Source: Bradyrhizobium sp. S69
Lineage (GTDB): Bacteria; Pseudomonadota; Alphaproteobacteria; Rhizobiales; Xanthobacteraceae
Direction of reading: 5' to 3'
Assembly (NCBI RefSeq): GCF_009766005.1
Contig: NZ_LMUK01000046.1
Span: forward strand, 1 to 64,000
DNA length: 64,000 bases
Both the position numbers and the translations under genes were made by a program. The notes below the pieces were generated by a model. It did not search any database, was not told the origin of the DNA, and saw only the letters and a program-made list of their open reading frames with translations. Shown here piece by piece: positions 1-56,453 of this stretch. How positions within the stretch are numbered: the first letter of the stretch is position 1; each line of letters opens with the position of its first letter.

Positions 1-165
1 CGCTGAACCTGTATGCTCGTGTGCGCTTTTTGCTACGTGCATCTTGGCACATGAGACCGCGGGTGCAGCGCGCACCCGGTCTTCCCTGCGCCCTCTTTAT
101 TCGGGGGGCGAATGATTTTTGCAAAACTCGGGCAGATGCCGTCGCGAGATCGCGGAGTTGTGTCT
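1..165 (-). repeat. Dispersed long repeat, truncated copy A
   Basis: This is the reverse-strand, left-truncated copy of a repeat also found at 13926-14362, 48485-49058 and 55735-56453. It carries one arm of the conserved outer stem (CTTCCCTGCGC, 81-91) and the GGGTGC/GCACCC hairpin near 59-77. The other outer arm lies beyond the window edge. Open frames crossing it are low-complexity and resemble no protein, so I read it as non-coding. Confidence 0.8.
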
Positions 166-13682: not shown

Positions 13683-13925
13683 GGTCGCAGCCTCCCCCCG
13701 CGTCTGACGGCCGCGGCCGCCGAACGTCTGCGCAGCGGCCGAAGGGCCGCCGTTTCGAAAGTGAGGCACCGCATTGGCGTCCACGGGAACTCCCGTTTTA
13801 CGCGGCTGACGACACTCAACTTCACTGGGCAATTCTTGCCGGGTGTATGGTTAGCAAAGGGTTAACGGAGGGGGGTTCGGACCGTCATTGCGAAGCGATT
13901 GCCAATTCGAGGCCGGCTCCTCGCT

Positions 13926-14362
13926 ATATTCCGCAAATGACGACACGCCTCCGCGTTCTCGCGGCGCGCTTCGCCCGAGGTTTGAAAATTCGTTTGCCCC
14001 CGAAAGAAAGAGGGCGCAGGGAAGACCGGGTGCGCGCTGCACCCGCGGTCTCATGTGCAAAGCAGATAGCGAAAACGCACATGAGCATACAGGTTCAGCG
14101 GAAGCAGTCCGGCCTTCCCTGCGCAATGGTTTTAACGGCCTGTTTCGTGCTCTCCCCGGCGAGACCATGCTTTGTTGTCACCGTCGCCCCCAAGAAGCGT
14201 GAGCTTCTCAAGAACTTGATGCCGGCATCGGGGCATCAGGACCACACGACTTAACCGTCCGCCTCACGCGCTGTTCGTCAAAAGCGCATCCGCGTCCACC
14301 GCTCCCCGCCCCAACGTCAGTGACGATGGCCAACGCCCCCTCTCTCGGGACGGGATGGCAAG
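13926..14362 (+). repeat. Dispersed long repeat, copy B
   Basis: This is a complete copy of the repeat described at 48485-49058. The 111-bp core is 14014-14124, with outer arms GCGCAGGGAAG (14014-14024) and CTTCCCTGCGC (14114-14124). Hairpin 1 is GGGTGCGCGCTGCACCC. Hairpin 2 is CTCATGTGC (14050-14058) with GCACATGAG (14077-14085). Downstream it shares CGTGCTCTCCCCGGCGAGAC and CAGGACCACACGACT with copies C and D. It fills most of the gene-free interval 13683-14450. Confidence 0.88.
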
Positions 14363-14450
14363 GAATAAGCAGCTGATTTGGGTCTGGAGTCAAGGACAAT
14401 TTCTGAAAATCAGAAATACTGCTGGTCCTTCTAATTCGCCCGGTCCTAAT

Positions 14451-15572
14451 TCACGGTTGGCCCAGATACCGAAACAGCACGTCCTTCCACCAGTCCGATT
14501 CCTGGACTTCCAGGAGCGCGACGTTGATCTGTTTCCTTTGGGAGCTGTCGTTGCGCAGCGCAATCGCATAGCTCTGCGGCTCAAAAACTACGTCGGTGAG
14601 TTCGACCGACGCAGACCCGTCCTGACGGATCATCCATGCCAGGATCGGCCTGTCGTAGGCCAAAGCGTCGATCGTTCCGTTCTGGAGCGCTTCAAGGCCG
14701 TCCTTTGGTGACACGACGGTCCGGTATTTGATATGCATCCGCGACAGCGCGTCCTCGGTCGAGGTTCCCCTGATAACGCCGACCCGCACCGCCGACAGGT
14801 CGGCGAGCGAGTTGACCGCGCCATGCAGGCGCTTGGTCGTCAGCGCTGAGGTAATTCCTGCGGTGAACACCGCGATGGCGATGACCGATACCACCATCCA
14901 GACGATCGCAACGATCCGGCCGGGGAGCGTCGCCGGAACAGCACCGCCGCTGGCGCGCTGGGTCATGGTGTTGGTCGACCACCACACGCCTGAACTGATG
15001 CCACGCGCCGTTCCACCGCCGAAGCTCTCGTTGGCGCCGTGTTCGAAAAACCAGATCAGCGCGCCCGCCACGAATGCCAGGCCGAGCAACGCCATCGCGG
15101 CCCGCAAGAAACTCAACGACACGATCGAGCGGATCACCGGTCCCCAGCTCGTGATCCGCTCGGTCTGCACCGCGACCCCGGTTCCAGTGTTGAAATACGG
15201 CGTGGTGAAATCCACCGATTGCTGACGCGCGGGTGTCACCGTGATGGCGGCCACCGCGACATCGAAATCACCGGCTTGCAGGTTCTCCAGCAGCGAATTG
15301 ACCGAGACCGCATCGACGAAGCGATATGGCAGCTTCAGCCGGTCTGCGACGTGCCGCCACAGATCGATACTGATGCCGCTCCAATGGCCCTGGTCGTCCT
15401 TGATCGCGAAAGGGGGTGCTTCCTTGGTGCCGACCACAAGCTCCCGGGTTTCAGGCTCGGTTTCATTCTCCGATGCACCCGCCTGCGGCCCGGCCGTCAG
15501 CACGGACGCGATCACGAGCAGCGCCAGGGCCAGCGCAATCGCCGCCAATGCCGATTGAAACCAGCGTTTCAC
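14451..15572 (-). CDS. Ionotropic-glutamate-receptor-like ligand-gated channel / solute-binding protein with pore insert
   Basis: The 373-residue protein (GTG start at 15572) has a signal/anchor, then a type-II periplasmic binding fold split by a channel module, the layout of prokaryotic glutamate receptors such as GluR0. Lobe 1 (residues about 44-145) includes ELVVGTKEAPPF. The insert has a span at about 155-177, a pore-like segment GISSGVWWSTNTMT (191-204) and a second span at 219-245 ending TAGITSALTTKR. Lobe 2 follows. Where potassium-type receptors carry TVGYGD this one reads TQRASGGAVP, so the canonical filter is missing. It is the last gene of the six-gene sulfatase cluster, 27 bp after the HlyD-like gene. 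Confidence 0.82.
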   Translation of the reverse strand: MKRWFQSALAAIALALALLVIASVLTAGPQAGASENETEPETRELVVGTKEAPPFAIKDDQGHWSGISIDLWRHVADRLKLPYRFVDAVSVNSLLENLQAGDFDVAVAAITVTPARQQSVDFTTPYFNTGTGVAVQTERITSWGPVIRSIVSLSFLRAAMALLGLAFVAGALIWFFEHGANESFGGGTARGISSGVWWSTNTMTQRASGGAVPATLPGRIVAIVWMVVSVIAIAVFTAGITSALTTKRLHGAVNSLADLSAVRVGVIRGTSTEDALSRMHIKYRTVVSPKDGLEALQNGTIDALAYDRPILAWMIRQDGSASVELTDVVFEPQSYAIALRNDSSQRKQINVALLEVQESDWWKDVLFRYLGQP

Positions 15573-25639: not shown

Positions 25640-25685
25640 GACGGGGACACGTCGTCTCGGCATTCCGCCGGGACACACCGGAACC

Positions 25686-25781
25686 GTCATCCTGAGGAGC
25701 GGCCATTTGGCCGCGTCTCGAAGGATGGTGTTCGCGGCCATCCTTCGAGACGCGCGCAAGAGCGCGCTCCTCAGGATGACG
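25686..25781. repeat. REP-like inverted repeat, GTCATCCTGAGGAGC family
   Basis: GTCATCCTGAGGAGC at 25686-25700 is mirrored by GCTCCTCAGGATGAC at 25767-25781, with inner arms GTCTCGAAGGATGG/CCATCCTTCGAGAC. The total is 96 bp, exactly the length of its relative at 48182-48277. It lies between convergent genes and could act as a transcription barrier. Confidence 0.9.
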
Positions 25782-48181: not shown

Positions 48182-48277
48182 GTCATCCTGAGGAGCGCGC
48201 CCTTCGCGCGCGTCTCGAAGGATGGCCACGAACACCATCCTTCGAGACGCGGCCAAATGGCCGCTCCTCAGGATGAC
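48182..48277. repeat. REP-like inverted repeat, GTCATCCTGAGGAGC family
   Basis: GTCATCCTGAGGAGC at 48182-48196 is mirrored by GCTCCTCAGGATGAC at 48263-48277. At 96 bp it is exactly the size of the copy at 25686-25781. It lies 68 bp past the TAXI gene stop. Confidence 0.9.
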
Positions 48278-48362
48278 GGTTCTGGTGTGTTCCGGCGCCT
48301 TAAGCGCAATTGCACACGAGGCGGGGACGACGAAAATATCTCCCTCATTCGATTTCCAGCGC

Positions 48363-48467: not shown

Positions 48468-48484
48468 GATCACCAAACACAACT

Positions 48485-49058
48485 CCGCATTCTCGCGACA
48501 TGATGTGCCCGAGGTTTGCCAAAACTTCCGCCCTCGCTAAGCAAAGAGGGCGCAGGGAAGACCGGGTGCACGCTGCACCCGCGGTCTCGCGTGCAAGGGT
48601 ATATAAAAAAACGCACACGAGCATACAGGTTCAGCGGAGGCAGTCCGGCCTTCCCTGCGCAATGGTTTTACAGCTTATATCGTGCTCTCCCCGGCGAGAC
48701 CTGGCTTGTTTGCCACCGTCGTTCCCAAGAAGCGTGAACTCCTCGCAAACTTGACACCAGCCATTGGGGCGTCAGGACCACACGACTTTGCCGTCCGCGA
48801 ACGCTTGCGATCGTCTTTCGCAAACTCCGCGTCCATCGCATCCCACCGCGCGTTTCGTGACGTGCGCAACGCCCCTCTTGTTGGGTGGGACGCACGCAAT
48901 ACGCAGCTGATTTGGGTCAAAAACAAAGCGGAATATTTTTTACGAAGGGGCTGGACAGGATTCCGCGCGCGAAGGTGATTTGCCCGTCGGGTTGTTATGT
49001 CGCACTCGAAAACGGAAATTTGTCCTTGCCAGCGAGTCGGACGAATGTCGCTCGCTCG
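48485..49058 (+). repeat. Dispersed long repeat, copy C
   Basis: This is a full copy aligned by eye with B (13926-14362) and D (55735-56453). The core is 111 bp, 48550-48660: outer arms GCGCAGGGAAG (48550-48560) and CTTCCCTGCGC (48650-48660), hairpin 1 GGGTGCACGCTGCACCC, hairpin 2 CTCGCGTGC with GCACACGAG. Beyond the core it shares CGTGCTCTCCCCGGCGAGAC, CAGGACCACACGACTTTGCC and GGGCTGGACAGGATT with copy D, up to the 3' end of the 52-residue gene at 49060. Confidence 0.88.
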
Positions 49059-55712: not shown

Positions 55713-55734
55713 GTTGATAGGTTCACGACACGAC

Positions 55735-56453
55735 TCCGTATTCTCGCGGCATGATGTGCCCGAGCTTTGCAAATTCGTTCGCCCCAAAAGAAGAGGGCGC
55801 AGGCGACCCTCAGAAGAAGAGGGCGCAGGGAAGACCGGGTGCACGCTGCACCCGCGGTCCCGTGTGCAAAGGGTGATAAAAAAACGCACACGAGCATACA
55901 GGTTCAGCGGAGGCAATCCGGCCTTCCCTGCGCGATGGCGTTACGGCTTATTCCGTGCTCTCCCCGGCGAGACCTGGCTTGTTTGCCACCGTCGCTCCCA
56001 GGAAGCGTGAGCTTCCGAGAACTTGACACCAGCCATCGGGGCGTCAGGACCACACGACTTTGCCGTCCGCGAACGCTTGCGCTCGTCTTTCGCAAACGCC
56101 ACGGCCCACCGCATCCCACCGCGCGTGTCGTGACGTGCGCAACGCCCCTCTCATCGGGCGGGATGGAGTCGTTCTGAAGTGTGTCGGGTAGGAAGGTAAA
56201 GCGAAAAATTTTTCGCAAGAGGGCTGGACAGGATTTTGCGCGAGCGAGGTGAGTTGCCCGACGGGTTGATTTGTCGCACCCGAAAGCGGTAGTTCGTCCT
56301 TGCGACTCAACCGGGCGAGGCGAACGCCCGCCGCGATCACAGGCTCCGCGAAGCAATCCATCTTGAGCCGTATGCGGGCAAGGTAGTTAGCTCACCCGTG
56401 CTTGGCCTTCTCACTCATTTCGCTTCCGCATCGTAAGAAATCCCGCAACCGCG
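55735..56453 (+). repeat. Dispersed long repeat, copy D
   Basis: The core is 111 bp, 55823-55933: outer arms GCGCAGGGAAG (55823-55833) and CTTCCCTGCGC (55923-55933), hairpin 1 GGGTGCACGCTGCACCC, hairpin 2 CGTGTGC (55861-55867) with GCACACG (55886-55892). Just upstream a GAAGA-GGGCGCAGG segment is partly duplicated. Downstream it matches copy C through GGGCTGGACAGGATT and GTTGCCCGACGGGTTG, and reaches the decayed gene tail at 56415-56453. Confidence 0.88.
56415..56453 (-). pseudogene. 3' remnant of a paralogue of the 52-residue gene
   Basis: The minus strand encodes GCGISYDAEAK then TGA. A 30-nt block differs from the end of the gene at 49060-49218 (GCGISYDAEAQ) by one base. The upstream coding part is missing; a GTAGGGCGG palindrome starts 12 bp away at 56465. 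Both tails adjoin a copy of the long repeat. Confidence 0.75.

Follow-up and report, generated by a model that had tools for sequence, protein, structure and literature searches.

The repeated 111-bp module at 14014-14124 of the window, by which is meant the whole 64,000-nucleotide stretch of Bradyrhizobium DNA analysed here, is best understood as the 3' domain of a much longer structured RNA. With a probability of about 0.7, we take this RNA of ~415 nt to represent a dispersed family of promoter-bearing non-coding genes, many members of which stand under the control of an S24 repressor. The conserved fold, its strand, the intergenic location, the copy number, the presence and absence of the element at one locus, and the greater likeness of copies within the genome than between orthologues were all computed directly. 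The window harbors three complete copies of the RNA gene (B, C, and D) and part of a fourth (A), with the following features.

13945..14359, minus strand: RNA gene, copy B, ~415 nt, with its 5' end near 14359 and its 3' end near 13945, from the consensus fold, covariation, and single-sequence fold; the end positions are drawn from conservation.
14014..14124, minus strand: 3' domain of copy B, equal to the 111-bp module (closing helix, hairpin 2, and competing inner helices), from the covariance model and pair counts.
14365..14393, minus strand: promoter-like hexamers of copy B, -35 TTGACT (14388-14393), 17 nt, -10 GCTTAT (14365-14370), at a position shared by the family.
14399..14416, minus strand: operator-like palindrome TTTCTGATTTTCAGAAAT of copy B, from a pattern search; the same motif occurs at the S24 repressor locus.
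48478..48892, minus strand: RNA gene, copy C (approximate ends), from sequence and fold, with a core model match at 48550-48664 minus.
48899..48927, minus strand: promoter-like hexamers of copy C, -35 TTTGTT (48922-48927), 17 nt, -10 GCGTAT (48899-48904), from sequence and family position.
55729..56167, minus strand: RNA gene, copy D (approximate ends, placed by eye), with a core model match at 55823-55937 minus.
1..165, plus strand: copy A, of which the window edge leaves just the 3' part (3' end approximate), from the core model match and sequence.
13883..13942, no strand assigned: stretch of REP-like palindromic sequence that borders copy B on its 3' side, outside the RNA, from sequence.

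The module was originally described, in an earlier note on this DNA, as a 111-bp branched palindrome repeated at four or more intergenic sites. The three complete 111-bp cores (14014-14124, 48550-48660, and 55823-55933) are indeed present with their arms GCGCAGGGAAG/CTTCCCTGCGC, as is the fourth, copy A, which is cut at the window edge (1-91) and lies in the opposite orientation to the other three; the hairpin-2 pairings that were quoted, including the mismatches of copies A and C, are also correct. The length of 111 bp holds for the three window cores but not throughout the family, in which 190 located cores span 106 to 119. The covariance model matches the core of copy B at 14014-14128 on the minus strand with 125.8 bits (44.1 bits on the plus strand) and that of copy A at 1-91 on the plus strand with 80.0 bits, its 5' end being cut. 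The number of sites rises to at least 69 copies in the 7.5-Mb genome to which the window belongs; that genome is placed in Bradyrhizobium by the FlhA protein of the window, whose best named matches come from contigs of this genus. A 37-nt stretch of the module finds 69 matches there at a tolerance of up to 3 mismatches, 37 of them forward and 32 reverse, whereas the same stretch read backwards as a control finds 0, and the repetition is therefore far beyond chance. The conserved unit reaches well beyond the module, extending over ~450-520 bp in this genome and ~655 bp in another species, many of whose copies match over that length. Within an alignment of 43 copies from the window's genome, conservation runs from ~100 bp before to ~250 bp after the core, with the promoter modules lying beyond.

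Beside copy D (window 55793-55826), AGAGGGCGCAGG is doubled with a 26-bp shift, so that the edge of the core is partly duplicated in tandem, and similar doublings are seen at other copies in the genome. A copy at L355:1596-1890 (plus strand, C54 of the same genome) is without its 3' domain, the match running to approximately query position 275 and resuming at 456. The window also contains a member of another intergenic repeat family, a 92-nt inverted pair (25666-25757 and 48206-48297) that is 97% complementary over a distance of 22 kb.

The consensus fold was built on 64 representatives and then on 139 representatives below 95% identity, and on the minus strand the latter gives 108 pairs. These make up a small helix at the 5' end, a long-range domain that branches several times, the 3' domain formed by the 111-bp module, and a hairpin at the 3' end. 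Along the tree of the 139 representatives, 173 compensatory branch events, in which both partners changed and the pair was kept, are found in 49 of the 108 pairs. Controls with slid partners give 5-19 such events. When the partners are re-dealt 200 times, the count averages 9.7 and never exceeds 24; when the substitutions are re-dealt across columns 30 times, it averages 38 and peaks at 49. One hypervariable helix accounts for 58 events in 9 pairs, pairing being kept while the letters change. Cells with double changes in the 64 cores number 99 versus 31.7 in shuffles, and none of the 500 shuffles reaches as high. An all-pairs G-test with a Fitch tree-based null returns just 4 pairs at E<0.05; we think that this null is inflated by long branches, and the event-count test is used in its place, with both outcomes given here. 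Covariation, on which the structural reading of the earlier note had been made to depend, is thus strong over many copies, and the conserved secondary structure that it supports strongly favors a structured RNA.

The strand of this RNA is the minus strand of copy B, opposite to that adopted in the earlier note. A comparison was made with 84 pairs predicted from both strands, because the pairs should not be picked by strand, and these hold 713 G-U against 185 A-C cells when read on the minus strand; by pair, 53 lean to G-U and 17 to A-C (p 1.9e-5). Single-sequence folding of copy B gives z scores of -4.77 on the minus and -1.46 on the plus strand, and the stretch 48477-48888 of copy C gives -4.50 on the minus strand. 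The structured RNA that had been put forward as one of two explanations of the module is accordingly upheld in kind, but it is some four times longer than the module, is read from the other strand, and includes the module merely as its 3' domain.

Within that domain, covariation is seen in the closing helix and in hairpin 2, and it extends to copies belonging to other genera. Hairpin 1 (GGGTGC/GCACCC) retains its pairing in 99.5% of cells, but none of its 6 pairs shows double changes. It shares one strand with a competing longer helix, which is paired in 91.4% of cells and has double changes in 2 of its 10 pairs, and the two may both form in turn.

Upstream of the RNA, the regions of the window's genome fall into three promoter module types, represented by 18, 9, and 10 copies, and 5 further copies fit none; the promoter region of copy C is of type b, while that of copy D belongs to none of the three. 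Over 116 diverse upstream regions the sigma-70 hexamer score peaks at a single offset, reaching 4.53 of 12 where shuffles reach at most 3.27. At this offset the -10 element ends 22 nt before the conserved GAGGGGC, leaving ~6-7 nt to the first helix. In genus g52, one copy (L167) carries TTGACA-18-TATAGT, with 11 of 12 matches, at the family promoter position. A strict consensus scan of copy B finds neither promoter nor terminator, and so the promoter assigned to it relies upon its position and family resemblance. No intrinsic terminator is found at the two copies scanned, copy B and L167.

Type-a promoters carry the palindrome TTTCTGATTTTCAGAAAT adjacent to the -35 element, and it is this putative operator that points to a repressor. 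Genome-wide, with up to 1 mismatch, 40 sites are found (control 0), of which 31 are no more than 450 bp from a listed core and 8 belong to additional or truncated copies of the element. The remaining site is at the S24 repressor locus, the sole place away from RNA copies. The repressor, of 207 aa, has a Peptidase_S24 domain (Pfam E 3.7e-13) and an HTH_3 match of 21.6 bits, below the Pfam cut-off of 23; a PDB sequence search with it gives no match. Its gene is divergent from one encoding a GcrA domain (Pfam E 1.3e-27, below the NCBIfam cut-off for GcrA itself). By eye, three operator-like sites precede the repressor gene and two cover the promoter of the small ORF that follows it. That ORF (L356:1581-1871, plus strand, C50 of the same genome) has no Pfam or NCBIfam match, and the arrangement, with two operator-like sites over its promoter, recurs in the Bradyrhizobium genomes asked. 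Many type-a promoters of the genome read TTGACTC (for example at window 14387-14393), which places a GANTC sequence, the site of CcrM methylation, on the -35 element; this is noted beside the fact that the repressor gene adjoins a gene of the gcrA family.

Among 26 genomes, a close repressor orthologue is present in all 13 Bradyrhizobium (75-93% identity) and in one genome of genus g69 (54%), and operator-like sites, some of them degenerate, are seen by eye at the repressor locus in 13/13 Bradyrhizobium. The Ala-Gly region, Ser, and Lys, which we take to be the features expected for self-cleavage as in LexA, are retained in all 14 close orthologues aligned, and the repressor is probably self-cleaving. 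A second clade has its own version of the operator: RNA promoters there carry CCGAAATTCGG in 20/23 and 8/14 copies (0/41 in the window's genome), and the upstream region of the repressor shows CCGAATTTCGG. A further palindrome, GATTTGCCCGNCGGGCAAATC, occurs at 23 sites, 4 of them away from listed cores; one of these four, on inspection, is another RNA copy. Since operator-like sequences lie both at RNA promoters and at the repressor locus, in the second clade as well, it is likely from these sequences that many RNA copies are controlled by this HTH/Peptidase_S24 (LexA/CI-like) repressor. The model cannot cover all of them, because the type-a operator is present in only 16 of 41 upstream regions of the window's genome and because the RNA also occurs in genera in which no close repressor orthologue is found. 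Only g69 among the other RNA-carrying genera has a close orthologue, and most of the remaining genomes of the 26 show just weaker, partial matches.

The RNA is found by sequence in 32 of 35 sampled genomes of the same genus, with up to 14 candidates scored per genome; G007, G030, and G033 yielded no copies. Within the family sample, 29 of 248 genomes (own included) match, in 8 of 47 genera, and 24 genomes from other families of the order show no sequence match. The covariance model matches 17 of 397 genomes in an order-wide sample (own included), all in the same family. When run on a chosen set, it matches 14 of 20 genomes in 9 of 12 genera, and the raw hits, which include some on the opposite strand, number 30 in one Bradyrhizobium, 22 in a genus-g50 genome, and 1-10 in the others. 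The g50 genome (G084) has 11 of its 22 model hits starting no more than 270 bases from a contig start, as if long identical repeats had broken the assembly. The RNA family comprises tens of copies in many Bradyrhizobium genomes and fewer in related genera. Plasmid and phage collections contain no match to window 13960-14300.

By gene calls based on custom codon scoring, 40 of 40 copies in the window's genome lie outside genes, one overlapping by 28 bp. All four orientation classes relative to the neighbors occur (15, 10, 8, and 7 copies), and the upstream gene points into the RNA in 25 of the 40. A cis element specific to a particular gene is ruled out because neighbors and orientations vary. 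REP-like motifs are found within 150 nt 3' of the RNA in 32/40 copies against 213/1075 random pieces of the same loci, a comparison in which the motifs were picked post hoc and coding DNA is among the random pieces.

Flanks were compared, with the element masked, for 42 copies of the window's genome, 23 of G005, and 14 of G008. Both flanks are common, and in the same orientation, for eight G005-G008 pairs and for two loci of the window's genome. At the latter two, the flanks are 80-86% identical and the core only 74-78%, no higher than the cross-genome core identity means of 0.764 and 0.772, while copies within the genome have a core identity of 0.928 among themselves. The orthologous G005-G008 cores, at 0.846-0.922, are above their cross-genome mean of 0.831. 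Since its copies are more alike than orthologous copies are, the window's genome displays the pattern that concerted evolution would give, with replacement by re-insertion as the alternative. One G005 locus, followed in seven other genomes, is occupied in 2, empty in 4, and filled with other DNA in 1, and so copies come and go; the four empty alleles have a REP-like palindrome in a spacer of 54-126 bp. The site of copy B is uninformative for dating by synteny, because the flhA upstream region of four named Bradyrhizobium lacks the element and has a different neighbor, and because a search of 146 genomes of the genus yields no close relative for the gene upstream of copy B (best match outside its own genome 68% identity). 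The protein encoded upstream of copy B (window 14451-15572, minus strand) has SBP_bac_3 (solute-binding) and Lig_chan (ligand-gated ion channel) domains and resembles a bacterial glutamate-receptor channel.

The comings and goings of copies bear upon the other explanation in the earlier note, a non-autonomous mobile element. The occupied and empty alleles fit such an element, but the 11-bp arms form an RNA helix internal to the unit rather than its ends, and several copies sit at orthologous sites across species. A developed version of this idea has the hairpins recognized as single-stranded DNA, in an IS200/IS605- or RAYT-like manner, so that the covariation would be that of DNA hairpins. This would account for the dozens of dispersed copies, for the alleles just mentioned, and for the REP-like palindromes beside the ends, and the strand bias would likewise be produced by G-T pairing in single-stranded DNA. 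It sits poorly with a structure that spans several domains over ~415 nt, with a hypervariable helix that is unlike a sequence-specific recognition end, and with a first helix that begins just past a promoter-like site. Neither terminal inverted repeats nor target duplications are seen by eye at the element ends, where flanking REPs blur the junctions. On balance we regard it as unlikely.

Action in cis on the neighboring genes, as a structured 3'-UTR, a terminator, or an mRNA-stabilizing repeat of the REP/BIME or ERIC kind, appears less probable again. The intergenic placement, the inward-pointing upstream genes, and the adjoining REP-like palindromes are all in keeping with such a role; the diversity of orientations and neighbors is not, and nor is the possession by the RNA of its own promoter-like site and operators. 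Least credible of all, to the point of near dismissal, is a conserved small protein or a decayed coding repeat. Mechanically called ORFs of at least 100 aa do overlap the copies, on both strands, but core lengths leave remainders of 0, 1, and 2 in 75, 73, and 42 of the 190 cases and so change in single-base steps, and no frame is open throughout the 40 copies of the window's genome, the shortest stop-free maxima being 29-47 aa. On these two grounds the protein-coding reading was rejected, and compensatory changes in pairs are likewise unexplained by coding.

The promoter-bearing RNA family would work in the manner of multi-copy small RNA families. We read it as new, in that it fits none of those with which it was compared, Rfam is without a match, and the published Bradyrhizobium REPs have different sequences. 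Rfam returns nothing for the element above the gathering threshold, only weak matches at chance level. Multi-copy bacterial small RNAs usually exist in a handful of copies. ERIC elements are intergenic repeats of more than 100 bp with a conserved imperfect palindrome, and in these respects resemble the RNA element, but they are shorter than ~415 nt and are not known to have a promoter of their own. The proposed regulation resembles that of genes repressed by LexA/CI-type S24 proteins, with palindromic operators over sigma-70 promoters and a repressor bearing Ala-Gly, Ser, and Lys; here, in contrast, the regulated unit is a repeated non-coding RNA, and the operator TTTCTGATTTTCAGAAAT presumably differs from the alpha-proteobacterial LexA box.

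Among published families, the suhB small RNA motif of the alpha-proteobacteria has a putative promoter, several copies per genome, five of them in B. japonicum, and no fixed neighboring genes (PMC1273637). In these respects it resembles the present RNA. It differs in having a terminator and only one short conserved helix (PMC1273637), whereas the present RNA has ~415 nt, many helices, at least 69 copies, and no Rfam match. Br-REP1 and Br-REP2 of B. japonicum USDA 110 are described as repeats with an RNA fold that occupy intergenic sites in Bradyrhizobium and its relatives, Br-REP2 within a larger repeat for which data are not shown (PMC5082802). To that extent they are similar to the present element, but they are short palindromes (PMC5082802), and their consensus, allowing up to 3 mismatches, occurs in 0 of 40 RNA copies of the window's genome. 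The GTAG/CGTC-tagged REPs, dispersed palindromes in Bradyrhizobium with hairpins of 20-40 bp, adjoin the present element, but in the sections consulted they are themselves without a promoter or multi-domain fold (PMC3733652). The literature covered on Bradyrhizobium REPs and small RNAs does not describe the element, an earlier partial description being possible (Madhugiri 2012); literature searches by sequence strings returned nothing relevant by title, and the accessible part of a published transcription start site paper makes no mention of the repeats (PMC4842269).

The proposed mechanism can be outlined as follows. Each intact copy would be a transcription unit starting at the first helix, and the S24 repressor, which has this operator in its control regions too, would hold many of the promoters off. 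Upon induction, with RecA-dependent DNA damage as the likeliest signal, the repressor would cleave itself and many copies would be released together; the released RNA may act in trans, perhaps as a scaffold or sponge. Spreading would take place at the DNA level, each unit taking its promoter along, between intergenic sites rich in REPs, and gene conversion probably keeps the copies alike. It is conceivable, though we advance it only tentatively, that this represents a new class, in which dozens of unlinked, concertedly evolving genes for a large RNA are governed by a LexA/CI-like repressor and fire as a set after DNA damage.

If true, the RNA would be SOS-released across the genome and have a protein partner of its own, or else the family would be comparable to a SINE that moves as DNA and brings its promoter along. 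Some 70 or more promoter-bearing copies with operators pointing to a damage-type repressor beside a gcrA-family gene would constitute a new regulatory layer in nitrogen-fixing soil bacteria. Two questions are thereby made testable: what benefit a cell draws from the simultaneous release of so many copies of a single RNA, and by what means RNA genes scattered over a bacterial chromosome stay alike.
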